Positions 1-34,976 of a stretch of 64,000 nucleotides of DNA are shown in pieces (the first letter of the stretch is position 1; every line of letters begins with the position of its first letter). The notes below the pieces were generated by a model. The model worked only from the letters and a program-made list of their open reading frames with translations. It was not told the origin of the DNA and made no database searches. The position numbers and the translations under genes were made by a program. The DNA lies in NCBI GenBank assembly GCA_018902385.1, contig JABSSW010000025.1, forward strand, positions 62,001 through 126,000, read 5' to 3'. This DNA comes from Physcia stellaris (Eukaryota; Ascomycota; Lecanoromycetes; Caliciales; Physciaceae).

Positions 1-1237
1 TCATTTCTGATTGTTGAGAAAAAATTCTAAAAATTCGTTGAAAAAACAACATAATGATTTTTCGAAATCAATGATTGCAAATGAAATGTTTGAATGAAAG
101 TTCGATAATATATTGCAATTTCGATATCATTATCATCGATTGCAATATCGTTGCAAATGATCGAATTGAAATTTTCATGATCGCACATGATATTACGTCG
201 ACGACGACGAGTTTCAAAATGCTCAGAACATCGTTGATGTTTTTCACGAAACTAATTCAGAACAAACAGAATCTGTTTTACGAAACGATTAGATTGTAAA
301 GTTTATGATCGATCAAAAGACGTCAACATGAATTCGTTACAACTCATTGTCAAATTGAGACAGATAATTTTTGTTTCGATTTTTTGCTTTCATGCTATTT
401 CGCGTTATTTACAGTCAGAATTTACGTCGTTTGAAAAGTTGAATCGTGTCAAAAATATTTTCAGAAATTGTCGTCAAATCTTACTGAACAATAAATAGTA
501 ATGTAAAATGTCATGCAATGAGATGAATAAACACAGATTGTCAAAAAAATTCGAACATTTACGAATTCGTCAACAAAATTTTCAATTGCTTACTAATGAC
601 ACGCGAAATTATCTGTAAAATTCGTTCAAAATATTTGCTTTTCAAAAAATTTAATACATGCATATTTCGCTGAATGCAATGTACGAATCAAACGTCATAT
701 ATGCGATAGCATCAACGCGTTAATCGTGATGATAAAAATTCTGTCGATTTGTTCAAATTATTCGTTTCGCGATATCAATTTGATGTTGCAAAAATTCTCA
801 AAATTGTTGACGCGCTAAATCAAATTCACAATTTTTTATTTATTAATGTTCGTCGAAATTACTTCTTACGAAACGTATGAATTGATTATTTTTCAAAACA
901 TTCATTACATTCACATTTTATCGCATGCAATGTACACACGAATTCTCGCATACGCGAAAATATCAAAACGTTAAACATTGTTACGATGATTCTATTAACA
1001 TGATCAAACTGCTCATTTCATCGTAAATCGATTTGATGTTTTCACGATTTTTGACAAATCGATTTCGCGAACGAAATCGATTTCACAGCATTTCGAATTT
1101 ATCTTTTCATTTCATCAATCATTCAATTCAACGTCATTCAACGACGCATTCAGATCGCGCAAAACGTTTTTCATTAAAAAAGAAACGAATTCAGTTGATC
1201 GCTTCGAAGCGAAACTGAAAAAAAACGAGAAATAATG

Positions 1238-1458
1238 TGACGAGCGTACATCGAATTCAACATTTGACAAAATTAACATCGAGCTAACATCGTTATTTTA
1301 TCACATCGAATGTTAGAGTCGAAATTCGACTTGACGCATTCAAAAGATCAAATTTTCTACATATGTCTTTGCAAATCTCATGTATTTGCTTCTCATTTCG
1401 ATATTTTCGTGTAATTATGTAGTAGTACTATATTTCTGCATAGCATTTCACATTTTTC
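1238..1458 (+). repeat. Inverted ~220-bp repeat, copy 1 (possible LTR)
   Basis: This stretch matches, in reverse complement, the stretch at about 3060-3285. Shared landmarks include a TTTATCACATCGAATGTTA block, a TTTTCTACATATGT block and a CTCATGTATTTGCTT block, in the same order and spacing. Inverted copies about 1.6 kb apart in a retrotransposon graveyard are most simply LTRs or solo LTRs of oppositely oriented elements. A weaker, partial match to one end of the same repeat occurs near 500-535. Confidence 0.6.
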
Positions 1459-1797
1459 GCGAAATTCATCGATCAAATTTTGTTCTGAATAATGAAACAA
1501 TTGATTGAACAACATCAAAAACTCGAAAAAAAATTTCGAAAAACGTTGATTGATACGCATGATAAAAATTTTGAATTTATTGCGTACGTTTCGTTTTTTG
1601 TTCTTTTCAACATAAATCAAAATCAAAATATCAAAAATCATTTGAGAAATTTTGAAATAAACAATGTCGATTTTACGTCGAGCGAAAAAATGTTCGCGAA
1701 TTTTGTTTTCGATTCAATTGATGAATGTCGTTGTTTTGATATACTCGTCGACGAAATGATCGACGTTAACAATAAATTTGTTTTTGATCAATTGCTT

Positions 1798-2211
1798 TCA
1801 AATCTCGTAAAAAAAATTTGAAATGTTTTCATTGAATTTGAAAAAATTCGACATTTTGACATTTCTATTCTTTTTATCGATGAACAATGTGAAATTGAAA
1901 ATTGACGTTGTTGTGATTTTTAGAAAATTTATTTCGTTTTGCAACTCTATATTGCGATTGATCAATTTAGCATTTTCGATTTTGAATTTGATGTCATTTT
2001 GAAAAATGAACGTTGTTGTAAAATTCATTCGAAAAATATTCATTTCGTCACGCAACGTCTGATTATTTTTTTTGAATTTTTCATTTTCGATGTTGAGTTT
2101 GAATTTATCGACATTGAGTTGATTTATATTTCTATTTTCTCGTCGAAATAAATTGACGATTTCTCGATTGTGTTTTTTGTTTTTTTCGATTTTCTCGAAA
2201 TTTTTGAGCAA
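1798..2211 (-). mobile_element. Fossil gag-like stretch of an LTR retrotransposon
   Basis: A 137-residue open stretch on the minus strand is rich in Asn, Lys and Glu with a heptad-like coiled-coil pattern, and ends in a segment that resembles the start of the gag domain of fungal Ty3/gypsy elements. It is a relic of a broken element. Assignment is by general character only and is tentative. Confidence 0.4.
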
Positions 2212-3059
2212 CGAATTATAGTTTTTTACGTGAGCGTTTCAGTTTCAAACAATTTGAATTTTCGCGTCACGATCGATTTTCAATTGATTCAACATTTGCA
2301 ATATCGTGAAAAGATTTTTGCAAATTTATTGTTGAAATTGTTCGACGATACAAATGTTTATCGCATGTTTCGCATCGTTCGAATTGTAATTTGCGTTTTT
2401 CGAAAAAACGTAATCTAAAAAGATGTTTTTTATCAATCTGAATGAATCGACGATAATCTGATCATTTTTCGAAAAAATTGCTAATTGTTGAATTTGACTA
2501 AAAATTTTGCGTTTAAATTTAGAAAGAATGATCACAAAAAGAATGTTGATAGAAATAGACATGATTGAAATTTTGATGCAAAAGAAAAATTTCGTTTCAA
2601 TGAATTCGACAATAAATATTCAAAAATAATCGTGCTTTAGAAACTTGATCGTGAAAAACAACGAAAGCAATTCTAAATTAGTGTTATTTTCGATGAAATA
2701 ATTCGTGTTGATTTATGATGAATAACTTTTGATGAAACGATGAATGTTGAATTTCGATTTATCGTATAGATGTTTGTTGATTGAAAATTTGACGATTATT
2801 TTTGCAATTCGTTTTTCGATATATTCAATTTGATACATCGACTTTCGCGATAAACATTTTTTTGAAAATTTTGTACAACACTAAAGCGAACTAAATTTTC
2901 TGTTTTTTCTTTGTTGTTTTGCTGAATAGAGTCGAGTCTTCTTGTTCAATCTGATTTTGAAAATGACGTTTTAAATTTTCGTGATTGATTTGAAATTTTG
3001 TTTATTGAGTAAATTGTCGTATCTCGAACAGTCTGAAAAAAATGAATGATTTAAAAATA

Positions 3060-3285
3060 ATGTGAAATGTCATGCATTGATTGAACAATACATAATTACA
3101 CGAGAATTTCTAAGTGAAAAGCAAATACATGAGAATCTGTAAAAACATATGTAGAAAATTAAATCGTTTGAATGCGTCAAAACGAATTTCGACTTTAACA
3201 TTCGATGTGATAAAATAAAAATGTTAACTTTAGTGACTGATCAAATGTTGATTTCAAATGTTGAATTCGATGCACGCTCGTTACA
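3060..3285 (-). repeat. Inverted ~220-bp repeat, copy 2 (possible LTR)
   Basis: Reverse-complement partner of 1238-1458, with the same ordered blocks. The two copies differ at many positions but always without creating GG or CC. Relation to the gag-like relic between them is uncertain. Confidence 0.6.
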
Positions 3286-3559
3286 AATATATTATAATTC
3301 GCGTTATATTTCTATTCAATTAAAATAAAACGAAAAAATTTATTTACAATTCAACAAAAATTACAAATTGTTTGACAAATCAAATTCGAAATTATTTCAA
3401 CAACGTTGCGAATCATTTCGAATTTTTGAACGCATCGAACGTCTCGCGTACAAATTGAAATTGTCATCAACATGACGAATTCATTTCGTTGTGTTTATTG
3501 CACAATTCGAATCAACATTTGTCGAAATTGATTTTTACAATCGTTCGCGTTTTCAATAT

Positions 3560-3790
3560 TTTGATTTCATTGAAATCGAAAACGATACGAATCAATACAA
3601 ATTTTATAAAATTGAAAAACTAATCGAAAAGCGAACTAAAAAGTACAACAAAATTCTCGTAACTCAATATTTAGTCAAATGAATCGACTATGAATCGAAA
3701 TATGACGAATGACAATTCATTTTCGAATTACAGAATTTTCAAAATTTCATTGAACAATACGAACTCAATCATTCGCATGATTTTGATGAT
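3560..3790 (+). mobile_element. Fossil chromodomain-like stretch of a chromovirus
   Basis: The plus-strand translation here shows a YKxxKIEKLIEKR-type core followed by YLVK. This is the typical first half of the chromodomain found at the C terminus of chromoviral (Ty3/gypsy) integrases. It is a broken relic. Its strand is opposite to the gag-like stretch at 1798-2211, implying a second element or an inversion. Confidence 0.5.
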
Positions 3791-3960
3791 CGCAACGACA
3801 AAAAAAAAACGAGAAAAAAATAAATTGATGCATGATATGATTACGCATGATGATAAAACATGAAATTCAATGAAAACATTGATTTTTCTTTTTTTTGATT
3901 GACAAATTGTTATGACACAAAGTCAGATTAGATGATATGAATTTAGATCAAATATTTTGG

Positions 3961-4673
3961 CATGACTTTTGACAAAAATTCTGTCGTCATTTCATACTAA
4001 ATGAGTGATGATCAGACAATTGACTCGCAATTATTGTACATAAATTGGCACTCTGCCGCTCATAGTTCCTAAATCAATCAATCCAGACTTTACGCATAAC
4101 ACTGGGGGAGCCGACTATATTGGCCGGAATTCCTCGAACTGATGGCACAAGAGAGTCAGTATGCTATCCAAGGCTCAATTTATCCGGAAAGAGATAAGTG
4201 GCATGACTTACTGTGGCATCTAATTGGCAAAAAGAATCCGACTTCCGGCCGCAACGGCAGCAACAAGAAGAGATTGGGAATATCTGCAGAGTGCGAATGT
4301 GATTAGGCGCGTGAGTATCAATATTACTTAGTGATGACTCTTATAGACGCCTGGTCAAGGAGAAGGTATGCTTTTTTACTTTACGCCTTCCAAAGACCAA
4401 GCCGTATAAAATCATTGGTCCTAGCGTACAGGGCAAGACCGAAAACCATATGAAAGTCGTCAATCTGTTGTTCTTCGCAGAGATTAGGCCACAAGAGGGC
4501 AATACTCCAGCACAACATATTAGTGGTTGGGGCCATGCCAATGGCGAAAAGACGCTCAGTATGCACTACTTGAGGAAACCGACTTTACTACAAATCTGCA
4601 GCAGTACGGTGCCAACTCTGTCGTATGTGGTGTATGAAGCATGATGACCTTAACTATTCAAGCTTCCCCGTGA
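3961..4673. other. Transition from AT-rich block to normal-GC DNA; no gene supported
   Basis: The composition switches sharply between about 3958 and 4045; GG and CC become common at once after about 4045. Short minus-strand frames at 4341-4566 encode hydrophobic stretches and may be decayed 3' parts of the possible membrane-protein gene at 4674-5360, but nothing is continuous. Confidence 0.5.
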
Positions 4674-17608: not shown

Positions 17609-20600
17609 TCAAATCATCCCGCCCATCCCAACATCACTGCCCATCCCAAACTCACTGCCCGCATAGCTCGCCGTTCTCGCACTCGGCTCCGCACTGCTAA
17701 CCCGCACCGTCTTCTTCTCCTTCGCCCCCGGCGCCGTCAGCACCTGCGCCGGACACACGACGATCTGCTCATCCCCGACACCCGCCTCATCGCCCTTCTT
17801 CACCACCAACGGGAACAGCACCATCCTGACCACCGCTTGCTGCGCCTCCAGAGCTTCGTTCGAAGACGTGGCCCCGCTGCGCTCGTTCATTAGCGAAGCG
17901 TTGAAGTAGACTTTTCGCGCGAGGTCGCCGTTGGTGTCGTATTCGGGTTGAAGCGGGGGAAGCATGATATACTCGGCGCGCTGTGTGCGCATCTCGATGC
18001 TGAGATCCACGGCCGCACCGACGACTTTGCGGAGGGAATCTTGGATTTGATCGACGAGATGTGGAGGCGGGGGAAGGAAGGTCGCGAGCGTGCTGTAGAT
18101 CTCATGAACCACTGCTTCGCTATCCTGCGCGCGTTGATGGAGGAAGGCATCACGTTTGGCCAGCAGGTTCAGGGTCGTCGCGCGCCATTTGTTGACCGCT
18201 GACGGGGACCGACTTCCGAAAGCGTCTTCTCGAGCGCCTTGAGTTTCTGGCGTTGTTCACGGTCCATGCCGAAGAGGTAGCGCGTGAAGATGTAGTCCCA
18301 AACCATAGTCATGACAACTGACATGAAGACGTCACGTCTTTTGACGCGGTCTGCGAGATAGAAGTCGACATCGGAGCCGTCGAGGATGGCGTTCTCCATT
18401 CGATCGACGATCTTCTCGTCAGCGATCTCGCTGGCTAGGAAACAGGCTTTCATGTCAGAGAACTTCGAGAAGCGAAGCACCCACTGTTGTACGTGCTGGC
18501 ACAACTTCTGGCATTGGCCGTCAAAATAGTCTTCGTCTCTGTCCATGATGAAGTCTTCCTTCGATCTCGATGCTAGGATTTGCTCTTGCAAAGCACGTAC
18601 TTGATCTTTTGCTGCTTCAAGCTCGTCTCGTACTTGGCTCAGCTCTGCATTTCGTGCTTCGAGAGCTACATCAATCTCATGCTTTACAATTGCCTCCATT
18701 CCTCCAGATAGATTAGCATGCTGCTGCCTGAGCTCGTCTAGTTCCCTCGTCGACTGCTGCCACTGCTCTCGAGTGTGCGCGTGCTCGGCTTCAAGCTGGC
18801 TGTATTGCTGCTTATGATCGGCCACGAGAGTACGATCTGCCGTTAGGCTCTCGTTTACTTCAGTAAGCTGTGACACCTGGCCCTGGAACCCTTCCAGTAT
18901 TCTCCGGAGTTCTCGGAGTTCGTCGTCCTTCTGGCGCAAGTAGAGGTCACGTGACTCGATGGCTTCCCGAAGCGCGTTGTTTTGCTTCTTTGAATCTTGC
19001 GATGCATCGTCCAAGTTTCTCTCGGCTCTGCTTTTGGCATCTTGAAGTAAGCGGTTTTCTGATACGAGCTGATCAAGTCGATTCTCGAGGTCGAGGATTT
19101 GCATGGATTGGCGTTTCCGCATCATGCTTTGAGGTCGCGATGGTGACATAGGACTGCCGCTGTGGACATCGCCCCAACCCTCCTAGGTGCATTGATCAGC
19201 GATCAGAATAATCCAAGGAAAATGGAGCTGGTACTTACATAGACATCAGCCATCTTGGTTTTGCCTTTGTCCTTGGTAGGGTCGTAAGAGGAGGAGGAGG
19301 CGATGGCTTCAGATTGCGACGTGTCCGCCTCAATTTGTTTAGCGAGACTCTTGGCGCGAAGATCCCCGCTAACGCTTCGATCAACACGGCGCAACGGCGG
19401 AGTCCCTGATGAATGATAGCTCAACCCACTGGCTGAGCGCACTTGATCCGGTGTGCGGATGATCGCATTGATACTGTCCCCGGATTTGATGCTTGCCCCG
19501 CTGAAAGAACGATAGTCACCGTCTCGTTGTTTGGGAGGTCCGCCTACGGGTGAAATTACACTCTGACGGCTTGGGGCTCGATTTTCGGCAGTGCGGCTTC
19601 TGCTACGTTCGAGCTCGACAAAGTCGTGCTCTTGGTCCACTGCTGGCCAGGAGAGTCTAGAGATCATATCATCCGTGGATACCATGCCCTGCGGTTCTTT
19701 GTTTGGGGATTGAGGCGACTGCGCTCGTTGCTGCGGGTCTGTGCGGCGCCGACGTCTGCTGCCACGCTCAGGTGATGGACTGTACGAGCGAGTCCGTGTC
19801 TTCCTTTGTAATGGAGAGTCTTCAGGGCTGTATTCTTTGATCGTGTCCATTGGTTTCCGATATGACGCCTCGTTAGCAAAGGGACTTCTTGGTGGCGAAG
19901 GTAATTCTCCGACTGTCGCAGGCGGTCCCCCAAAGAGAGACTGATGTGACAGACCTTCAGGCGCCGTGCGTTCGTCGAGTCCGGCTGGGCTTAATGCACC
20001 CTCGTTACTAGGTTCATCTTGACCGGACGGACTTGAATACGGCTTCTGAACGCTCGCGTCCTCGTCTCTGGTGGACGGAGAAGACTGGAAAAGTATAGAC
20101 GATCGATCCTTGCTACTGGGACTGACCGGAGAGGGCTGGCGACGGTCATCGTAATAATTCGGTGTGGGCAATACGTCGCGGAGAATGTCACGATCTCCCG
20201 TGCGCTGATGGTGTTGTGTAGCTGGATTAAATGGTGGGGATTTGTATCGTTCATTTTCAAGAGACATTGAAGGTCGTCCAGCGCCTAGCATACCAAACCC
20301 TGCATCAGCAAAGCTCCTCTGATCAGGTTCGGCATTGGATGAGCCCGGGTGATGATATGGTTCGGACGCTGAATTCAATACTTCTGCATTATCGGTTGGA
20401 CCAGCGTCCGCAGATATGTTGAAAGCGTTAGCGACTGGGCCCTCGGAGAAATCGACATTCTGGTCGCCTTCGCCTTGGTTCCCTTGACGCCTTGCGGACG
20501 AGAAGGAAGTATCTGTTACGTCCATACCGTCGTTACTTGCCACACTCCTTAAGGCTTCGATAGGACTTGCTTCGGTTTCTTGGTAGCCACTATCACGCAG

Positions 20601-23600
20601 TACGCGGTGGGAAGGGAGAACATGGGAAGCGTTTGGAGAGTCAGCAACGTGGATAGCGCTATCACGGTTCATGGAACGATCCTCGTGGGCATCTACACCT
20701 TCGTGCACACTGTTCCCCTCGGTGACCACTCTAGGGAAGGCTTCATGAGACCTTGGTGGTGTCGAGACAGCATCTCCTTGCTGTAAAGTTGATTGCCGAT
20801 TTTCTTCCATCTCATGCGCGTGGGAAAGGTTTGATTCAGGGGCTTCTGTCTCCTCATCCTCCCATCGCCTACTCTTTTTCTTCTTCTTGCTCTTACCATC
20901 ACGTTTGGAGTCTTTACGAATCAGGGTTGGGCCCATGACTGCAGCAGTACCTACAGCTCCAGGCATACCACCAACAGTATCAAGAATATCTATAGGGTCT
21001 CCGATGGACTTGGAGAATTGCCTTGGTGAAGAGCTTCGCGATCTTAGCTTTGTGGTCTCAAGACGCTGGTCCCTTGCGCCCTGATAAGTTAGGTCTTCCG
21101 AATCCTGGGAGTTGGTGTTCTCGGTGGCTGGCGCTTGTCTCATGGATTTCTTTTTGGATTTCTTGCTCGTCATGATTGGACCGATATCTTCCTCTTTTAC
21201 CGGATGTGCGGCCACAAGAGATTCATGCTCATCCGCTGTTGATCTAGTAATTTCTCCGTCTCCAGTAGCTTCCTGCTCTTCTTCTTTTGATTCTTTCGCG
21301 CCTCTCGCTTCTGCACCATCAAAGTCTGCAGTAGAAGAGATCGTTCCCACAATATCGTTTCCATGATCTTCTGCCCCTTCCGTCACTTGTTTATTAATCT
21401 GCATTACATCTTGATCAGCAACTACAGGAACTTTGTCTGTTGTCCCGTGAGATCCGGTATCAGAACGGCCTTTGGTCTCAGTGTCGAGCATCTGATTATT
21501 CTGGGTCATTGGCACTGTTTGCGCTTGAAAACGAGGAATTTGCATATCAGCCGGTCCATTCATTTTGAGTGAGGCGGGCGATGGGTCCTTGCTATTGTCC
21601 ACAGCGTCGATGGCACTGTATTCGGCGTTGTTGAGCTCTACAGCCTTATTTTTTGGCTTCTCGAGACCAGAAGAGGCCACCTCATTCAGGGCTTCCCAGT
21701 TCTGGGAAACAGGTGCTTGAGGATCTGCACTAATAGTCCTCCCAGCGTCCTGTGTGGGTAAACTAAAATAGTCGCTTTGCTCGTCAATATGACGTACCGG
21801 TGAATCCGGTAAAGCTGCATCTTCTGCCCGAGGCAAAGTCGATGTCGGCTCGTGTGACTTTCCTGGGTAAGTCTGATGAGGACCCGGTTCAGCCGTGGCT
21901 GAGAGACGTTGTGGGGACTGCAGAGCAATAGGGGCAACATGCTCGTGCCATTGTTCAACAACAGGCATTTTAGCTGTCTCATCTTCCCAGATGATTGGCT
22001 GTTTCCGCTTCTTCTTCTTGCTGCTGTTCTTCAGACTAAGAATGGAGGCCGAAGAATCGTTGTCTTGAGGAGGTTGGGCTTTGTCTCCAGGTAAAGTTTG
22101 CGCGTCATGCAAGGACGTCGATCCTTCAGATACTTCGGAATTTTGAGCTCGACCAGTCGCATTGTATCGAGGTTGTAGATCTGCGCTGCGGTTTTCTTCT
22201 TTACTGATTGCTTGGGCATTCGCCTCTAATGATTCTCCCGCAGCGGGTTTGGGTTCACTAACGCTTGAATACGGGGTTGATCTTTGTTTTTTGCCCTTTT
22301 TGCTTTTCTTAGCAGGAACATCCCAGGAATCGATGTCATCATCTTTTGCTTCATTGCTTGTCTTGATTGGTTCCCTCTCCACTTCGGCCTCACGAGAGTG
22401 ACCTTTGACTTCCCCTGCAATAGGTTGACGAATAAGCAATTCATCGTCGTGTACCAAATCTGCGGCTCTTGGAAAGCCTTCCTCAGTGGATGCGTTTCGT
22501 TGTCCACTTTGTATGTCATGCAGCTCATTAGATCGCCGAGGCTCTATCGGGTCCAGGTCTGTTGTAGCGCCTCTTTTAGACTTCTTCTTTTTGCTTTTTT
22601 GGGGCAGTGCTAGCGCTTCTTCCTCCATCTCAACCATTTTCTTCGACGGTGGGTCTGCATCGGTACGCTTAGCCTTAGATGGCGGCTCAATAGCGGCTTC
22701 TTCCTCAGCTACCATTTCCGGCCCCTCTTCTTCGAAGAAGCTACGCTTGTGTGCCTGCTCTGGAGACAGCTGGGGTGGGACAGCAGGTATGTCATCATCA
22801 ACACCCTGCTGAGAAACAAAATGTGCTGTAGCAAGCTGCTCCACCTCTGCAAACGGTAGCTGCAGCTTCTCAGCATCCCGCAAGTTAGGACTTTGCTTTA
22901 ATGCTTCTTGTGGCTTGATTCGAGTTTTCGCTTGACCATGTTCCGAAGAATCAACCTCATCAGCAACGCCATCACTGGAGTCTGATTTGGGTTTAGAAAT
23001 AGGTTCCTCCAAAGGCGCCGGCAGTGGGAAGGTAGACAGTCGTTCCGCCACAGGCTCTTCGATCACTTGAGGGGCAGCTTGCGCGGCTTCTTCCTCTACA
23101 TCCAAAACCATGGGCTGCTTTGAGCTTTTCTTCTTCTCTGTGGAAGAAGTATCAGGCTCTAATTCGATCTCTGTTGGGGGATTCGTCTCATCATATTGAA
23201 CTTCAACAGATCCAAAAGCGTCAGGTCCCCTTCCCTGCTCGTATATTTGCTCAAGAGGTGCATTATGATCTTCAGGACCGACTATGGGCTCTTGTGTGGT
23301 TCCCACATGCCCCAAATCCTCCACGCGCTGAACGTCATCCAGCTTATCCGTATCTTTGTAGTCTTCAAGCCGGACCTCTGAAGCCTGAGACTCGTCCCAA
23401 GGAAGGGTTTTCGATTTTCTCGCTTTCTTGTCTTTCTTCTTCTCTTTTTTCGTCGCGAGTATAATTGAAGCTGGATGCTCCCCTTCGTTTTGTCTAAGAC
23501 TTGGAGAAAGCTGCCGTGCCTCAGTGATCGCTTCATCTACCCTCCCTGCTGGACTTGGCATTGTGTGGGAATCGGCTTCGGCCGCAACGGTTGAGATTGG

Positions 23601-26600
23601 GGGTTCCTCAAGTACTTCCTTGATTGTCGGCAAGCCTTCTTGCAAACCTTGAGTGGAGGCTTCGAGCATTTCCGGACTGGTAGCCACCGTGTTCTCTTCT
23701 GCTGAAGGGGCTTCAACGACCTCGACCCCTGTAAGCGAGCCACGCTTCTTACTTTTCTTCGACCTCTTGCCTTCTCTTGGAGCAAAAACGTCATTTCTAG
23801 TCTCGTCTACGGGGAGCATGAAGCTGTCCTCTGGCCGCTGTACGGAAGCCCCCAAGCTAGGGTCTATCACAAACGGTTCCTCCGCTTGACGAGGAGTGTC
23901 CTCCTCCCATGGTGAATTTTGACCTTTCTCGCGCTTTTTGTTCTTTTCGCCCTTCTTTTTCCCACTTGCGAAGTCTTCTAGACCTGCCGGAGATGGACTC
24001 TCTAAGATTTCTACGGGTCCCGCAACCAACTCCGAGGCCGCTTCTTGAGTCTGCGGTTCTGACGCAGCGGTAGATTTTGCTGGAGAGATACCGTCAGTGT
24101 CTGCCTCGGCGTGTTTAGGCAGCTCGGCGGTTCGATTCGAGTCTTCATCGATAACTTTATCGTGAGCAGATACTTTTGGCACCTCAGCAGCCTTCAAGGA
24201 GCTGTCTATAACTTCGCCAATAGATTCTTCCACGCTCACCTTAGATTCTTTAGACGCGTCTTCTGCTAATGTACCACCCTTAGGGCTAGAGATTTCCTGT
24301 CCAGTGGAATCCCCGGCGGTATCGTCTTCCCACAGCAGTGAACTCTGATTTGTCTTTTTGCTTCGCCTTTTCTTACTAGGTTTGGAAGTATCATCTAGTA
24401 GCTCCATTGTTGGCTTGCTTTCGGTCAGCAATGCGGGAACAATTAGCGGTGCTTGGATGCCAGTCCCCGAAGTAGGCAACTCGTCATTCGACACAGAACG
24501 TTTGTTCTTCTTTGCCGATTTCTTTTTGTCTTTTTTGCTCATCGACGACGTAGTCTTCGGTGGTTTACTTGAATCCACTGCCTCTCCAACGGCTCTTGTT
24601 ACATCAGACATCTCATTAACCTCCTGCACAGGTAAAACGGAGTCTGAGGGTGTGATTAGAGGCTCCTTAGGTGCAGAAGCGGGTCCGGAAGCGTGGTTGT
24701 CCTCTTGATACGGCGTTGTAAATGATAAATCCGTGGTCGTGAAGTTGCGGGGCTGATGCTCGGTACCATAGGATGCATTGTTGAGGCTGGAGCTGCTCGA
24801 TACTCTAGGAAGAATGCTACCATGGAAGTCGTTAAAGGGCTCTGACTGGGTCTCGCCTGCCGGCTCGTCATTGCTTGCTTCGACGGGCTGTTCCATGGTT
24901 GGGATCTCAGTCGTACCCTGAACTCCCACGGCTGGCTTAGACTGTAAGTTGGGTAGGTCGAGAAGCTCTTTACTATGGTCTATGGATTCCATAACCTTAT
25001 CACTAAGTGTATCAGCGGTTGCAGGGTCTTCTAGTGGTTGGCGTAATTCCGAAGGTGCTGTTCCTGAATCCGTTGCATGTAGAGCCTGATCGTTGGCTTT
25101 TGTGGAAATCTGAGTCTGCTGCTCGTGGATATCCAGTGTTCCAGGGGTTGTGGTAAGAGGATCTTCCTTTCCTTTTGGCCTAGCCGTGCCCGTCTCCATG
25201 TTCTTCATTGACGACGTACGGGCGAACAAGTCTTCATCTACTTCATCTTCAGCAAATCTATCTTTTTTTGATGGACCAGTGTAATGCGGCTTCACTTCGG
25301 TCGGGCTAGAAGGTTGCTCGGAGATCTCCGCCCCAAGTAGGGCCTCCACGCTTTCGGCGGTGTTTGTCATGGCTATCGGCGGGTCTGTCATTGATACATC
25401 CTCGTCATTCCCTACATCTGGTTTGATAGCTTGGTTCCTCTTAGCTTTCTTTCCCTTCTTCTTCTCTTTCTTAGTGGACGTGGTCCAACTGAAGCCCTCC
25501 TGATGTTGTTCCTCTTTTGGTGATGTCGCTGGGTCTGAATCTGGATAGACAGGCACGAAATTCGCTGGCGCCTGTTCTTCGACTGGTATTGTGGCTTGCA
25601 TTGTTGGTATGTCCTCGACTGCTTGTGACGTGGCCGTTAAGACAGAGGGCTTCGAAGCATTCCGGACATCTTCAACTTCTGCAGGATCGGCCAGATTGGA
25701 GATCAGTGGCACTTGATCAGTAGTTTTCAATGCGGAAGGGATGTCCTTTGTCAGAGGAGGGGAGTCCACACCGGGAATCTGGACATTCTCGGAAGACTTG
25801 ACTGAGCCTGTATCCTCGGGGCGCGAGCCTTCTATTGCTGGGTTTTGAGGTGAGGGTGTTGACAGGATACCGCCAACTGACTCTTGGGTCCTCTCATCTT
25901 GGGGCAATGACTGCAACGCTGACTGTTTGGGTGGCAAAGTGCCACCCGATATAGGACGCTCTATCAGTGGAGCCTCGGACTTATCTTGTTGCTTGGGATC
26001 TGGCTCAGGGCTTTCCAGAAGGGCATCATGGGTTTTAAGTTTAGATTCGGAGTCTACCTGCTCTAATGGTTGCTGATCTACCGGGTTTGAATGAGACGCT
26101 AGCTGTGAATGTACTGCGTGTTCAGGCTGTTGGAGGTGTAGCTTCGAAGGAAAGAAGTCAGCCTCGGGCTTCAGACCTATTGGATCTGAGTGTTCCTCGT
26201 TGGATGTTAGTATACGCGAATCTATTGGCGCATTTCTATTGCCGATCGCTTGCCTCACTCCATCGTGTATTGTGGGATCTGGTGATAGCTTATCGGATAC
26301 TGTCCTACGCGGCTCGGCATCTTGTGGGTTCTTTTTATGGAATCCACCGTTGCTCTCGATTCCAAGAGTATCGATATCAGCTGTTTGCGGACTCGCTGCC
26401 CGATTCAACCCCATCACACTAAGCTCTGTTTGCCGAGAGTCCTGTGGAGCTCCAAGATCATCGAATGACGTTTCATGTTTTGGCAGCTTTTTTGCGTCGG
26501 GGGAAAGTGGGTTGAGGTCCGTTTGTGTACGGTCCATTGCCACAATATCAGGTTTGGAAGGATGACGTTTCGAAGACCCCATAAGCTGCTCGGTTTCGGT

Positions 26601-29600
26601 GCCTAGACTTGAAGTAGTGTTCTGATCACCTTGAACAACACAACTTTCTTCCACAGGATCAACAGCTTTGTCTGAAGAGATTGCGTCCACTTGGTCAAAG
26701 TCGAAATGTGATTTGGCTGACTCAACTTTGCTCGGCTTTTGCATACCCTTGCTACCTTCTTCCATGGACGACGCAAGGTCCGCTAAGTCGACATCCTCTT
26801 CTCGCTGATCAGCATCACAATCAAGTCTGGCGGCGGTTTCTTCTTGAGGTGTAGCAGCAAGGGTAGGTAGCCTCGTTAGGATGGGCCCTGACGTAGATTT
26901 TTCGTTGACTGATAGATCACTATCAATGTGCGGTTCATCTGGGGTTTCGTCCAATAAATCGAGGTCCTCGCTACTGGGTAATGCTACGGCTTCTGGACAA
27001 CTCTGAGGGCTGATAGCAGCTGTAGGCTGCTCGTCACTGTGCAGGGCTTTTTCATGGCTCTGGACAGTTCCTGGACTCGATCCTGAAAGATGGTCATCGT
27101 GGACAAGTCCCTGATCGAATGGATTTTGACCGCTGCCGCCACCTACCAATGAAGGCTGCCCCAGCGCTATATCCTCTTTCTGTGGGAGACTGTTCTCGTT
27201 ATAACCCTCAGTTGCCGGATTGCTTTTACGAATTTTCTTAGACTTCTTGGATCTTTTAGAGGACTGCGCCTCTAGATTTGTCTCCAGCGGTACGAATCCT
27301 GATGTGGCATCAAATGAGTAATCCTTGTTGGACAAGCTGCTCAGTGGAGCTTCGTCACAGTCGGGATACTGATTACTCTCATTGCTAGGTTCAGATAGGG
27401 GATTTATTCCGGTTTCAGCTTGTCCTGATGGCTTCAATTTAATTTTCGCCTTTTTGGATTTTTTCTTTGAGGAAGCACGACCAAGGTTCTCAGCAGATCC
27501 CCCTAGATCATCGTGGGACATGGTCAATGCGGGTTTCCCATCGCCAAGAGAGTCTCCAGGAGGAATAGTTGCTGCAGTTCGATCTGATGTCAAGGATATT
27601 TCTCTGTCCAGGAGAGCTGGGGTTGAATCTTCGAAAGCTCTGGCCTTTTCCGACTGGTCCAGCCCTGGAAGAAGCGCATCAACATGGGACTCCTGCCCGA
27701 CGTCACCCACACCCTCGATCGTCTTCTTGCTAGAGGCATCTTTGGACTTGGAGGGTATGTCCTGCATCAGAGTCTCGACAGAATCATTTTGCACCCCAAA
27801 ATCCGTAGCACTGACGGTGGCCGCCTCTCCATTATCAGCTTCAGCAGCAATGCTCATACGATGCACAACCTCTAAGATAGGCATGCCTGGTTTCAATTCT
27901 ACGTCTCGTTGAGCTGATGGAACCGGTTTTGCACTTTGTTCCACCGAAGCTACGGCTTCCCGTACTGCCGAATCCTCAGGCTCTGGATTGTCGTCATCGT
28001 TCACCATTTGTGCGGAGACCTTGTCGTTTCTTGATGGTCCGCTTGTTGCCTCAGTCTGTACCTCCATAGAACTTACTGCGGCTCCTTTTTTCTTCTTGCC
28101 TTTACCTTTTGTCTTCATCCTAGGCTGCTTCAGCGCAGCTGGGGTGAACAATGAAGTCGCAGCATCTTGAGTATCCTGCTCTTGTGTAATTGGTTGCTGT
28201 CTTGCAGTGCCTGCTTCTACGTCTGAACCTTTGAGGCTTTCAGGTACATCTGATAGTTGAGCTGATGACGGATCATCGCTCATAGCGATGGTGTGAGCAG
28301 TACTAGGATAACGCATTGCATGATCATCCTCCTGGCGTTTCAAGAATTGGTCCTCATCTGCTTTCATGACATTATCATGTATTTCAACTGACGGTACGGC
28401 TGGATAGACGTTTTCCCTCTCGATCATGTCTCTGCTCTGTTCGCGTACGTTGCTCTCTAAATCTTCCGCCCTTTCTCGATGATGCTTGACCACGGCCACA
28501 GCGCTTGCGGCAGAGGCGCCGAGGACAGCACCAAGAGTGACAGCCTTGAGATCGTGCGGAATTCCCAAGCTTTCTTGTGCTGGGCTTGCAGCTGGAGACG
28601 AAGAATTGCTGCTCGGTAGGGAAGGAAACCCCTTTAAGCGTAAATCAGCAGTGACCGGGACAGTATTTTCAAGATCTAGATCATCACTGGTCCTTGCATC
28701 TGCGGGCTGCATCGCTTCCTTTATCGCCGCTGAAAACGATGATGCGGTAGGTGTAGGCTGCTGCGAGTCCAGCAGATCTGAGTCCACTTCGTCGCGTGTA
28801 TTGCCTCTTACTGAAAGATCTTGGTCGTCAAGGGGGTCGTATAGAGTCCGAGTTCTCTCACGGGCGGTTTCATCAGAATCATGCACAGATGAGCTTCTTG
28901 AAGTGGTATGGCTAGAAGGCAGCGAAGGATAAACCTCATCGATGGGCTTCTCCTTGAACGACGCGTGCTTCGAGACCAACCACAGAGGCCTAAACTCGTT
29001 GGAAGACTTGAATTCTGTAGAGCGTGGCCGAAGCTTTGGACGCGAGGGAGCAGAAGCCGCTTCTGAAGCGGACGGCGTCTGCGGTAACGACGAGAAGGCG
29101 CGACCTGTGCTGGGGGATGATGGCGGAATACGGAAGTGGAAAGGCACAGCAGTAGGCGAGGGCTGTGGCGACAGCGTCTTTTCTCCGTCCTGAAGTTCTA
29201 AGAACCGTTGGCTTGAAGCCCTGTACTTGCCCGTGGGAGATGAAGGTAGACTACTAGCTCCGGAGGGTGGCTCAAATTCTGAACGATTACCGAGTGGAGA
29301 AGAAGAGCGTCTGGCAGTGATGGTAGACTCTCCTACGCCTGCTGGAAAAGGGCCACCGGCGTCAGCTACAGCTTCGAGAGGTAATGAACCCTCCGGGTTG
29401 AGTATGTCAGGCGGTCGCGGTAGTTCCTCGCGCATTCCTAAAAAAGACATCGATCGATTATCTTCATGCGAGTCATGGTGGTTTGTGTCAAAGGTGGATG
29501 CCGATTCTCTGGTCTTGAAGCCCTCATTACGAGCGGACACTTCGTCCTCGGGGTTCGTCAGCCAAGTGTGGGAAGATGGGGAAGGGTCAAGACCAGTTGA

Positions 29601-32600
29601 AGCCGGTGCAGGAACCGTGGCGGGTAGGGTCGTCCTACCTAAATCTTCCGCTGGGCGGCCGTCATCATCAGCTTCGATCAGATCAATCTCATCTGTTCCT
29701 CGCGTTGCCAGCTTGCTCCTTGACTTTTTCTTGCCCTTCTTCTTTGGCGTCTCGAAATCGGCAGCTGCTGTGGTGGCTCCGTCTGCGACCGGAACAACCG
29801 ACTCGGAAACGTCCGCAGATGATTTCCCGAAAAGGCCAAAGAGGCCGCCCTTGCTGCCTCTTCGCTTGGCCTTCACATCTTGCACCTTGTCACGTGTAGT
29901 GGATGTTGACACTATAGAGTTTTCGTCTTCAAAACCAGTGCTGTCGCGCTTCGATTTTCTCTTCTTCTTGCCGTTACTTTTCTCTGTAGGAACGGGAGCA
30001 GATGCGGCCGCAGACCGAGCATCGTAAAAATCGTATTCATCGGATTCTCGGGCTAAAGCCTCGCGTCCTCTGCTAAGTACTCGAGGCTCTTTGAAGGCTT
30101 CCTTATCCTGGTTGGTATCCGCGTCCTGAAGCTCTTTGTCGGATGACTGGTTGGTTCCTTGGCGTTTCGATTGCTTGTCTTTCTTTCTCTGCTCTCGTTT
30201 GCTGAGTTTCATCTCCGATTCTGCTGGCTCTGCACTTGGCTCGTCTTCTTCGAAGGCACCCGGCATGTGGGGAAATACTTCGCCCTCGACGAATCCTTGT
30301 TGAGGTGGTGCTCTGTCGCTGGATGATAGCTCACTGCTTATGTTATTCACAGTCTCTCCAAATGAGCGCCGAGGGATCTCAGCCTCATTGGATCCTGGTG
30401 GAGATTCTCGGCGTCGGAAACCTGGGTCATCCACCACAATGGAGGGATCGAACCCAGCTTCCGAAAGACCCGCTGCAAGCGTTCCTGCGAATTCCAGATC
30501 GTCACCAAAATCCTCAGATGATTTCGTTCGCCTGCCTTCAGCTTGTGACGCTTGTGCCAATGGTGACTCTGGTTGGACAGTATCGGACTCAGGAGAGATA
30601 TCGGACTTTACATGTGTGCCCTCTTCTCTTGACATAGACTCTTCGTGCCTATCGCGATCAATCCTCGGCTCGATAACCCTATACTCAGAAGCGTGAGATT
30701 CTTCAAGAACGTCCTGAATCGTCGCCTGTGGGTCACGGGACGTTTCCGAGCCTTCAGCTTGTGGAGCTTGTGCCAATGGTGGCCCTGATTGAATTGATTC
30801 GGGCTCAGGAGAGACATCGGGCTTCACATGTATGCTCTCTTCTATTGGCATAGGCTCTTCGTGTCTATCGCGATCAAGTCTCGGCTCGATAATTCGATAC
30901 TCAGGACTGTGAAACTCTTCGAAAACGTCCTGAATCGTCGCTTGTGGATCACGCGACGCTTCCGAGATTGAAGTTTCTTCAGCGACAGCTTCCGGCCTTG
31001 GTGGTGGTGATACGTCGCCGTTTTCTGAGCCCTCCAGACTGCTAGGCTGAGGCGTCGGTGAGATGAGCTTAAGCTTCGGTACCCAAGGTGGCGGCAGGGG
31101 ATCTGGATTGAGTTCCTCTCCATTGGGCCCAAAGGTGTAAGCGGGCGCCTCTCGCGAATCATGAAAGCCATTGGGTTCAATGGTAATCACTTTAGGAACC
31201 TCAAAGGCAGCAATGGCGTTATCTGTATCTGCTTCTGCTACAGCTTCTTTGTATGACGGTGACCTTGATAATAGCTCAGTGGGAGTGAAGAAATCTGCGT
31301 AATCCTCGTGGTTTGAAGTTCTCTTGTGTTCACCGATCTCCTGCCAAACAGATCTCTCCTTGCTTCGTCCATCGAACCGTGCTTCGCGCTCAAGATCTTC
31401 AACACGCCGAGCTTCTCGTGCTTGACGTTTGCGCTTCCGGCGTTCTTCTCCAGAGCTGTCGGATTGCGATAACTGAGTGTCCACAACAGCTCCCGTGGCA
31501 GCAGCAGCTCCTATAGCCGCGGGAACAGCCCAAGAAACTCTTCTACCAGATGGTACTTTTCTATTCGAATCATCCTTTCTGATATAAGATTCATCCAGGA
31601 CTTTTTCAGGCTGAGTTGTAGATTCAGAAATTCTTTGCGATCGACGTTCTGCTGACTTGGTCTCACGCTCCGCTTCCTTATCCTCTTCCAGCCCATGACG
31701 GTCATCACGAGCTCGTCGCTCATCGTCGTCTTGGGCCTGACGCTGTTCACTGCGATGCTCTCTTTCAGCCCTCTCATCTGGCGGATTAAAACGAACAGTA
31801 GAGGAGTTTTCTCGAATTGAGCTCCGGCGACGGGGCACAGCAGGTGTTGTAGGTTGCGAAAACTTTTGTGCCGGAGTAGGTTCTTGTGTGTAAGGCTTAA
31901 CTTCTTCGGGGATAGTGGTTGTTGACTGCACGCCAAATTGATGAAAGCTTCCAGGTATGATCGGCTGAGCGACATTATTGTAAGCCCCGACTCTCGAGTC
32001 TGGCGCTGGATGCTGAGCATAGGATGGCTGCGTGTGGACATTTGAAGTTGATACGTTGTATGAGTCACCATTCGGTGCCTGTGTGGTGTAGACTGCGGGT
32101 GACACAGGGGTGATGGGCTGCGGGTGCTGGATAGGAACAGGGTCCGGCCGGCCATTAAGAGGTATCTGATCTGCAGGTATGCTCGAGCTCGTCCTGGCTA
32201 CATTATATCGAGAAGGATCAGGCGTAGAGATCTGATGGGTTTGTTGCAGGGGAAGACTGCTGTTGCTGTGCATGGTAATTCGTGAACTATTCCTATCGGG
32301 ACCTTCATTGGCGGCTACACTTCCCCAATTAACGCCAGTGCCAATGTCGGCGTAAGGAAGGCCCTGTGGATCGGATGTTTTAGAGTTTCTGTCCTTAGCA
32401 GAACGCTTCTTCGCGCTGCCCCAACGCCAACCCCATTTACTGGTCCCAGACGAGTCGGACGAGATAGAACTCTTACTAGCCTTTCTCCGAATGGAGCTGC
32501 CATAGGCAAGGTCAGAGTTGACACTGTCCACGTCTCCTTCGGAAGCAGATTCCCAAACGTCGTCCTCAGAGTCTGATGCAGAGCGTTTTGACCTCTTCCT

Positions 32601-34976
32601 AGACTCCAAGCCACGAGGATGCTTCGCTTTCGATTCCTTGACAGCAACGAGATCCGCTCTTCTCCGAGATTTGTTGTTCTGGCGTGTGTTCTCTAAAGCC
32701 AGCGCGGCAGCAGCAGCCCCTAGTCCTGCGACAGCAAATTCAGCCTTCCGATGATCATTGCGCTCAACGCTCTTGCGCCTACTGTCTCTTCGCCGATCAG
32801 ACCTAGTGTACGAAGTCGAACTTGTATCCGATGAGGAAGCTGAAGAAGAATTACTGAAGCTGAAAAAGCCCTTGCTTTTACGTTCCTTGTGAGGCTTCCG
32901 GTGATGTTCAGGTGTTTGGGTGAAGGAGGCTGTTGTATGGCTCTTGCGCTCTGGCGAAAGGTTTGAATGATGACCATGGCTCTTATGTCTGGTTCTAACA
33001 AATGCCTTTTCAGACGAATGACCTTCACGTCGACTTTTCGATGCTACGACGCTTGATCCAACAGTAGACCCAACGCCGGTTCCAGCGAGAACATTCTTCC
33101 GATCACCCGAGTGTGATCTAGATCGCGATCTCGAGGTTGGATCTCGTCGAGCATCATATGTCGACGCTCGTGGTGAGCCAAGAGCAGCACCATGGGAAAC
33201 TTTCTTGTAGACTCTACCATCACCAGTAATTCCCGTTTCAACACGCTCTCTGGAACTGCTGCGGTGTCGTACCCTGATTTCGCTGGACCTTTCAGTCTTG
33301 CCACGTGAGACATAACTCCTTCGGTCTGGCGACCGCGAATAATGAGATCTCTCAGCGCGACCGGACTTGACACTATACGTATCGTCGAAGTCATTTCGCT
33401 GGATGAAAATGCTTTCCCCAACCTTGGCCAATCCATAGCCAGTGATCCCAGCTCCAAGCCAGGACTTGTTCCGCCTTCGTCTCTTTTCGTTATCGGATGA
33501 CGAGTAGCGACTATCCTTGTCAACTCGCATGCTACTCCCATAGCGGTCATTAGAGCGACGTCGCCGGTAATGATGTTTCCGCGGGGCATCTCTAGCAGAA
33601 GAACCTGGCGCAAAGCAGTCTCTGCACACACCAATGTACTCTGTATATTCTTCAAATTGCGCGACACCGTCAGGATCCTTGAAGAAATCCACCAACGTAG
33701 ACAGTGGACCACCATGACGGTGCTTCTGTGCCATTGAGCCACTCACGAAAGGCTGCGAAGCCGAATGATGTTGAGATGACTGATGATTCTGGTGGTAAGC
33801 CGAGGCTGCTAGCCCTGCTGTAGCAGCAGCGTACAATGGTAGATTGGATGAGTGCGATGAGTGTTTGCCAGGCGCAGTTGAGTCTGTATATTGAGAAGTG
33901 GCATCGTAATGACCACTGGCATAAGAAGTCGGACGCTGATTTATGGTTGTCTGACTGCCACCGGTAGAGGATACCCGGTGAGGGCGCTGCTCGTGAGAGC
34001 CGCTCCCGGTAGTCATGTAATATCCTGCTGCTGCACCGGCTGCGGCCGCACCAATCGTAGGGAATGCTGACGTCGAAGCAGTATAATCTTGGCTGTCTGG
34101 TCTAGCGGCGCTGTGAGTGTATGTTGGGAGTGGTTTTGACGAGCTTGAATGTTGAGAGACACTGTTGTTGACCGCTTCCGTACCGAAGCTGCCACTGAAG
34201 AAAGACGCAGCTGCTCCAACTCCACCTGAAGCGCTGGGTTCCGGCGGCGGTTGAGCGGTGGATGAAGCAGGCTTGAGATGTGACTGCACTGCTCCAGTTA
34301 TCGAGGTCGGTTGTGGTCTGACACCAGGTTGTTCTGAGACCGATTGTCCAGCATCTCCATAATAGTCTGCTGCGAGTCCTGGACCTCCTTCGTTTACAGA
34401 TAATGGAGGTCGGTACGGCCTAGCAGAAGTAGTAGGAAACTGACCAGGGAACTGATCAGGAACGTGAGAGGACATGGGTGGTGCTGATGTCGTTGGCGGA
34501 CCGCCAACAAACCCACCATCGTATTGCCCAGGAAACTGCATGAAGCCGGAGCTTCCCACTTGCGCATCGAAGTCGCCTCGAGTTGACTCGTGAAGACGTG
34601 TGTTGCCATTGCCAAAGTCGTTCGCCCGGTCATTTGCATTCTCTGCCTCGTCCTTTTCCCGCCTCTGCCTTCTTTCGCGTTTTCTCTCTTTTCGGTCCTG
34701 ACTGCCATCACGGCTTTTCTTCTCCCGTTTTCCTTCAGAACTCGGGGACTGGCCTTTTCTTCGCTCACGATTCCGCTCCCCATCATAGACACTATCGCGC
34801 CCACCACGTTCTGTCTTCGTTTTTGGCATAACGCTCTCAATGCTTACAGAATTTGCGGTCGCGGAGGATGCGGAACGGCGCTGGTGCGATCGCGAATCTC
34901 CATCTTTGCGCCGGCTGCTCTGTGTTTCTCGATTATCTGCTCCATCATTTTTCTTGCCACTCAGTCGACTCCACAT
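17609..34976 (-). CDS. Giant 'involucrin-repeat' protein, probably Leashin (LAH)-type Woronin-body tether
   Basis: Exon 1 (19239-34976) is open for 5,246 codons; intron 19183-19238 (56 nt, GTAAGT...CTAG) joins MADVY to EGWGDVHSGSPMS; exon 2 runs to 17609. The N terminus (MWSRLSGKK) is basic and RS-like. A conserved block near residues 420-470 has FFKDPDGVAQFEEYTEYIGV and a CRDCF pair. The middle, several thousand residues, is disordered and acidic, with recurring Lys-rich tracts (KKSKKxKK) followed by W-E-D clusters. Exon 2 begins with a coiled coil and then a conserved helical C-terminal domain. Size (about 5,770 residues), one huge exon and conserved ends flanking a variable middle match fungal Leashin, which links Woronin bodies to septa; this identification is inference. 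The frame shifts by one base at a G run, 18204-18207: upstream LEKTLSEVGP and downstream AVNKWRATTLNLLAKRDAF are both conserved-looking but lie in different frames. Read literally, the protein stops near 18169. Confidence 0.85.
30525..30956 (-). repeat. Two tandem 216-bp (72-residue) repeats inside the giant gene
   Basis: Copies at 30741-30956 and 30525-30740 both begin SRDPQATIQDV and continue through a ProIle/ValGluPro-Arg-Asp-Arg-Asp-Arg-His core to LAQA-QAEG. The period is exactly 216 bp, keeping frame. The copies differ at roughly a quarter to a third of residues, so the duplication is not recent. It is an example of how the spacer region of this protein may grow. Confidence 0.85.

Follow-up and report, generated by a model that had tools for sequence, protein, structure and literature searches.

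The 64,000-nucleotide stretch of the Physcia stellaris genome analysed here (the window; G000:C25:62001-126000, from an assembly of 43.97 Mb in 147 contigs) begins with an AT-rich block of 3958 bp that contains neither GG nor CC. Repeats make up the block, and most of them are relics of long terminal repeat (LTR) retrotransposons. Comparison with related loci makes it very probable that the repeats of this genome have undergone C-to-T hypermutation resembling repeat-induced point mutation (RIP), with cytosine before a pyrimidine (CpY) as the target and the preference CpC > CpT >> CpA > CpG. At the level of sequence, the direction of change, the dinucleotide target, the order of targets, the action on both strands and the high speed relative to ordinary substitution are evident, and the same signature is present in two unrelated kinds of repeats, retroelements and ribosomal DNA (rDNA). 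The CpY target represents a new variant of RIP-like mutation: the action resembles that of RIP, while its CpA hallmark is missing.

Depletion of GG and CC in repeated DNA

An earlier note on this DNA had reported that positions 1-3958 lack GG and CC at about a quarter or more of G+C, where over a hundred would be expected by chance. Exact counts gave zero for both dinucleotides at 28.2% G+C, with the first GG at 3959, and 1000 mononucleotide shuffles of the block yielded 157 GG+CC on average and never fewer than 119. The ratios of observed to expected counts, 2.77 for CpG, 1.25 for CpA, 1.33 for TpG and 0.42 for TpA, agree with its description of abundant CpG and CpA/TpG and scarce TpA; depletion of CpT (0.43) and ApG (0.38), absent from that note, was also found. 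Beyond the block the window has a normal composition, with CC at 0.93 and GG at 0.94 of expectation, and the longest stretch there free of GG and CC measures 104 bp. The adjoining upstream 30 kb (G000:C25:32001-62000, loci L013-L015) likewise contain neither dinucleotide, so that the whole run spans at least 33,958 bp (Table 1), over which 958 GG+CC are expected; its left end lies further out. At the right edge composition is normal again within about 150 bp, the 100-bp pieces starting at 3901, 4001 and 4101 containing 1, 4 and 14 CC+GG.

Twenty loci of up to 10 kb each were read, three of them making up the adjoining 30 kb and the others surrounding copies of the block. Together with the block they form an AT-rich sample of 188,858 bases, picked by homology to the block and trimmed by hand. 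The depletion is common to all 20 loci: the sample contains 43 CC and 27 GG (observed/expected 0.02 and 0.01), with ratios of 0.18 for CT, 0.19 for AG, 3.74 for CG and 0.43 for TA. Neither GG nor CC occurs in 333 of its 376 half-kilobase pieces, and the highest counts in a piece are 12 (L024) and 7 (L030). Normal GG and CC levels in other repeat blocks, which the earlier note had named as grounds for abandoning its proposal, were thus not encountered; the other blocks read are equally depleted. For at least 68% of the bases of the sample, a match of 300 bp or more exists elsewhere in the loci read. All 20 control pieces of 1.2 kb have a GC content of 41-57% and contain 76-199 GG+CC each. Their positions, round numbers chosen by hand on 19 contigs where the search with the block gave no match, do not amount to random sampling of the genome, so they give no estimate of its AT-rich share.

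Direction, target and order of the changes

The direction of change was read from copies of an element that we take, from its motifs, to be Ty3/gypsy-like. Two GC-normal copies of its reverse-transcriptase region, L055 (G000:C5:1166401-1167100) and L056 (G000:C12:60201-60900), with GC contents of 48-49%, served as the reference pair. They are 97.5% identical over 691 bp, with 17 differences, and by eye encode the same protein over their overlap. Being GC-normal and open, both have escaped hypermutation; a possible CpY excess among their differences (11 of 15 transitions, by eye) looks too weak and was not used as evidence. A DNA search revealed at least 38 further copies at 73-82% identity among the 40 of 172 candidates scored. 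Eight of the 38, selected to span the identity range, were compared at the columns where L055 and L056 agree, with both strands pooled.

In these eight copies C has changed to T at 548 of 585 CpC sites (94%) and 518 of 734 CpT sites (71%), versus 34 of 702 CpA (5%) and 4 of 544 CpG sites (0.7%). This is the process that the earlier note had suggested, acting on C next to C or before a pyrimidine. Only two other base changes were found at C/G sites, and 26 of 2770 A/T sites were changed. The 3' neighbour decides the outcome: TCA and TCG were changed in 11/239 and 2/208 cases versus 202/219 for TCC, and the second C of CCG was never mutated (0/96). The effect of the 5' neighbour is small: the changed share of CpC is 92-97% after every base, and that of CpT ranges from 53% (after G) to 84% (after C). 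In seven of the eight copies the strands do not differ at p<0.05, the exception being L060 (p=0.013). The least mutated copy, L057, carries 102 CpY changes (CpC 60/73, CpT 42/91) next to 2/88 at CpA, 0/68 at CpG and 0/345 at A/T sites, which indicates that CpY changes far faster than by ordinary substitution.

The same target was found in a dead rDNA unit, L034 (G000:C41:41501-49500), still recognisable as small-subunit (SSU), 5.8S and large-subunit (LSU) genes. It holds the sole 5.8S match among 39 of 2644 candidates scored. This mutated 5.8S might fit Chaetothyriomycetidae, but no weight is placed on that. Comparison with the Rfam consensus at conserved columns, over all 18 alignment blocks shown, revealed C-to-T changes at 38/44 CpC (86%), 27/56 CpT (48%), 2/47 CpA (4%) and 0/39 CpG (0%) sites (CpY versus cytosine before a purine, p=2.1e-21; CpC versus CpT, p=0.0001), while 322 of 333 A/T columns are unchanged. 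Inclusion of variable columns weakens the contrast (CpC 165/243, CpT 95/158, CpA 20/140, CpG 38/181). In the 14 blocks that remain after two LSU and two SSU blocks, variable or poorly aligned, are left out, the counts are 37/43, 25/51, 2/43 and 0/39, and the strands agree (CpC 10/12 and 27/31, CpT 8/14 and 17/37, CpA 1/15 and 1/28, CpG 0/20 and 0/19). An intact rDNA array was not found in the assembly among the 39 of 2644 candidates scored, and the working array may therefore be unassembled.

The order of targets is apparent from copies of the block itself. In 14 copies of 1453-3285, including that of the window, CC+GG amounts to 0-4 each, while CT+AG falls from 101 to 2 and CA+TG from 231 to 192, with TA climbing from 90 to 130 and CG keeping within 93-102. 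Six copies of 1-1452 are concordant (CC+GG 0-4, CT+AG 99 to 1, CG 85-96). The process thus consumes CpC, then CpT and slowly CpA, leaving CpG untouched. The saturation proposed in the earlier note applies to CpC, which is nearly exhausted; CpT is graded between copies.

Under the CpY rule, a sense codon becomes a stop mainly by conversion of TGG to TGA, whereas classical RIP is expected to create TAA and TAG. In-frame stops interrupt 140 of 150 scored reverse-transcriptase matches (527 candidates), and the 286 stops comprise 250 TGA, 33 TAA and 3 TAG. Each of the 16 stops in the eight gypsy copies is a TGG-to-TGA change, affecting both tryptophan codons of every copy; none was found there at the four CAA, five CAG and four CGA codons of the reference.

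These data refute ordinary RIP of the Neurospora crassa type, with its CpA target, for the repeats read, and we give it next to no weight as an explanation. The C:G to T:A transitions on both strands of repeated DNA that characterise RIP are present, genes of the RID and DIM-2 types are encoded, CpA is changed above background (34/702 versus 26/2770 at A/T sites), and TpA increases in the most mutated copies. The preference for CpA is, however, lacking (34/702 versus 548/585 for CpC), the stops are chiefly TGA rather than TAA or TAG, and the RIP indices deviate in the wrong direction. TpA/ApT equals 0.42 in the block, 0.47 in the 34-kb run and 0.66 in the genic part, and (CpA+TpG)/(ApC+GpT) equals 1.47 in the block and 1.32 in the run; the classical cut-offs (0.89 and 1.03) are passed by none of 33 kilobases. 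A dominant CpA-to-TpA signal, which the earlier note had regarded as fatal to its proposal, thus appears neither in the counts nor in the indices. The standard cut-offs miss the process because its target is C before C or T, not before A. The ratio (CpC+GpG)/(TpC+GpA), 0.796 in the genic part, falls to 0.000 in the 34-kb run.

Candidate enzymes, competing explanations and known systems

Both types of cytosine methyltransferase that the earlier note had suggested looking for, RID and DIM-2, are encoded and are candidates for a role in the mutation. A search with the PF00145 profile gave four matches in three genes. The product of L010 is of the DIM-2 type, matching PDB entries 9bap and 9baq with E-values of 2e-181 and 2.9e-181, versus 1.2e-34 for the best DNMT1; its motif VI reads ENV by eye. 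Entry 9bap, labelled DNA (cytosine-5-)-methyltransferase, is presumably N. crassa DIM-2. Two further genes, L011/L012 and L009, are of the RID/Masc1 type, with motif VI reading EQT and EET, respectively (by eye). Both contain the C-5 methylase domain PF00145 (E 2.2e-33 and 3.3e-29) and SPPCQ, including the PCQ of motif IV, and in the catalytic part L009 and L011 are 40% identical over 174 residues. The target recognition domain (motifs VIII-IX) comprises about 74 and 80 residues in the two proteins, counted by hand across a putative intron. Two TGA codons within the L009 match fall, by eye, at the position of this intron, shared with L011. In the literature, the RID group is distinguished by EQT or EET instead of ENV in motif VI and by a very short target domain of about 80 aa, EET being named for the RID of Botrytis cinerea and P. 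destructans and EQT being the triad of N. crassa RID (PMC6709928). RID/Masc1 genes are described only from Ascomycota (PMC4352252), and their presence here suggests an ascomycete genome.

The block most probably represents dead repeats hypermutated by a RIP-like defence that converts C to T on both strands, at CpC first and then at CpT; CpA is hardly affected, and the changes at CpG do not exceed background. Such a defence would depend on the sensing of duplications and could be active in the sexual cycle, as in Neurospora, where RIP takes place after fertilisation and before meiosis. The responsible enzyme would be of the RID/Masc1 type, most likely the EET paralogue L009, or RID acting together with a DIM-2 of altered preference. 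L009 is the first candidate because B. cinerea combines an EET-type RID with a CpT signature, which there occurs beside CpA. On this hypothesis, RIP would have been re-targeted from CpA to CpY in one fungal lineage through a second RID-type enzyme that reads the 3' pyrimidine in catalysis; we consider this plausible, at slightly less than an even chance.

An alternative that concerns the enzyme alone is that the altered target is due to DIM-2 or to the EQT-type RID. A CpT preference has been reported for DIM-2 (PMC13297926), and RIP without RID has been reported in N. crassa (PMC11969663). However, CpC prevails over CpT here (94 versus 71%), the EQT triad is shared with N. crassa RID (PMC6709928), and Leptosphaeria maculans possesses DIM-2 beside CpA-type RIP (PMC4352252), so that this assignment is possible, if rather doubtful. 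The catalytic activity of RID itself has gone undetected in vitro (PMC13297926).

Explanations outside RIP were set against the counts and rejected. An artefact of assembly, base calling or simulation might be suspected from zero counts over 34 kb, which look artificial, but it can practically be dismissed given the graded states among copies, the codon-specific stops, the still recognisable rRNA genes and the return to normal composition in the flank within 150 bp. Premeiotically induced methylation (MIP) followed by decay of 5-methylcytosine is slow and makes CpG the most mutable site. Spontaneous deamination of methylated cytosines of this MIP-like kind is unlikely here: a DIM-2-type methyltransferase is encoded, and a 2026 review ascribes a CpT preference to Neurospora DIM-2 (PMC13297926), but CpG is untouched (4/544 in the gypsy copies; 93-102 in all 14 copies of 1453-3285). 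The changes in L057, 102 at CpY versus 0/345 at A/T sites, are also too fast for it. A DNA cytosine deaminase of the AID/APOBEC kind, or UV damage, would fit C-to-T hypermutation of both strands. Both read the 5' neighbour (TC, CC, WRC), whereas the 3' neighbour decides here, as seen from TCA, TCG and TCC and from the intact second C of CCG. No match to APOBEC_N was found in the genome, a weak test limited to a single family with prokaryote controls, and we regard this explanation as very unlikely.

The proposal that the mutation is repeat-directed holds in so far as the mutated DNA of established nature is repeated DNA (retroelements and rDNA); the sensing of duplication is a step that we infer. 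At least eight 5S genes, spread over six contigs and 108-120 bp long, are spared: their scores are 57-89 bits, with the cut-off at 38 (47 of 1658 candidates scored), and their sparing is predicted by a length threshold. In N. crassa, duplications above about 400 bp and 80% identity are sensed (PMC3017866).

Several observations weigh against a RIP-like, duplication-dependent process of this kind. L055 and L056, at 97.5% identity over 691 bp, exceed the Neurospora thresholds yet are spared, and 10 of the 150 scored reverse-transcriptase matches have no in-frame stop, so that either the process does not reach every copy, or it is no longer active, or the spared copies arose recently. Within the small AT-rich sample no repeat partner was found for 32% of the bases, picked as they were by homology, and the view that DNA is mutated because it is duplicated derives from where the mutations lie. 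Possession of two RIDs alone does not explain the target either, since P. subalpina, likewise with two RID-type genes, shows RIP of the CpA type (PMC5148876).

The hypermutation resembles RIP of N. crassa in the C-to-T changes on both strands of repeated DNA, the AT-rich transposon graveyards, the presence of RID- and DIM-2-type genes, the sparing of short 5S genes and the mutation of a dead rDNA unit. Unlike the RID-dependent Neurospora process, targeted at CpA, it affects CpC and then CpT, sparing CpA nearly and CpG fully, produces stops from tryptophan codons (TGA) rather than from CAA/CAG, and is negative by the standard indices. Mutation of C before T is shared with B. cinerea, Sclerotinia sclerotiorum and Magnaporthe oryzae, which have a CpT signature beside CpA (PMC4352252), and with Anisogramma, where the RIP signature is CpT-biased (PMC10998396); with B. 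cinerea it also shares the EET-motif RID (PMC6709928). In those fungi, however, CpA is a main target as well and the available accounts report no CpC target, while here CpC leads and CpA is marginal. Microbotryum and other basidiomycetes likewise show repeat-associated C-to-T change in a fixed dinucleotide context (PMC4352252), but their target, CpG, is the most protected dinucleotide here. MIP of Ascobolus involves the same Masc1/RID-type gene family and differs in its outcome, reversible methylation (PMC7862722) instead of CpY mutation. In Monilinia, CpC-to-TpT double mutations are described on top of CpA-type RIP, and this case is hence different. Searches of open-access literature yielded CpA, CpT and CpG signatures and, in the text covered, no CpC- or CpY-dominated RIP with CpA spared; Clutterbuck 2011 lies outside this scope and may hold related cases.

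A 2025 survey of 1,239 fungi attributed a common CpA preference to RIP-like defences (PMC12543289), which this genome contradicts. A RIP-like process at saturation can go unnoticed in surveys using the usual indices and, if the re-targeting is true, similar genomes may be listed as RIP-free. The shift from CpA to CpY alters the damage, with few stops, many missense changes and CpG retained; a re-targeted defence would saturate CpC, keep CpG and CpA, and break reading frames chiefly at tryptophan codons. The EQT- and EET-type RIDs of one genome, together with a clean CpY signature, provide a natural pair for testing how RID chooses its dinucleotide.

Composition of the block and open reading frames

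A search of the assembly with the block yielded at least 87 matches in the 40 of 806 candidates scored, a count that covers the block and also its inverted ends. Its parts are listed in Table 1. Reverse-transcriptase matches keep a fixed side and distance relative to copies of both pieces: beside eight copies of 1-1452 (on C2, C11, C38, C39, C57, C68, C81 and C84) they are on the same strand, 2.0-2.2 kb upstream, and beside four copies of 1453-3285 (on C4, C19, C30 and C49) on the opposite strand, 1.9 kb beyond the left end. The two pieces terminate in related sequences of about 220-230 bp that are inverted relative to each other. These positions suggest that the 3' part of one LTR retrotransposon abuts the reversed 5' part of another.

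Table 1. Features of the block at the left end of the window
Feature	Position in window	Strand	Remarks
GG/CC-free AT-rich block	1..3958		Rightmost portion of a run spanning 33,958 bp or more, G000:C25:32001-65958
Putative relic of the 3' part of an LTR-retrotransposon family	1..1452	+	At least 25 further copies, 84-94% identity
LTR-like end of the 1-1452 relic	about 1236-1452		Related to 3056-3285, inverted
Putative reversed relic of the gag-side 5' part of such an element	1453..3285	-	At least 13 further full-length copies, 87-94% identity
LTR-like end of the 1453-3285 relic	about 3056-3285		Inverted match to 1236-1457
Third repeat piece, kind not assigned	3286..3958		At least one further copy, C8:8285-8958, 92% identity
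Edge of the hypermutated block	3959..4100		GC and CC/GG climb to normal within about 150 bp

An open reading frame of 137 aa, rich in N, K, I and F, is still open on the minus strand at 1798-2211, inside a hypermutated relic. The CpY rule yields few stops, so that long frames can survive in dead elements. Outside the block, a single open frame of 5257 aa occupies positions 19203-34976 on the minus strand; its repetitive, charged product presumably resembles the fungal proteins known as involucrin-repeat proteins.

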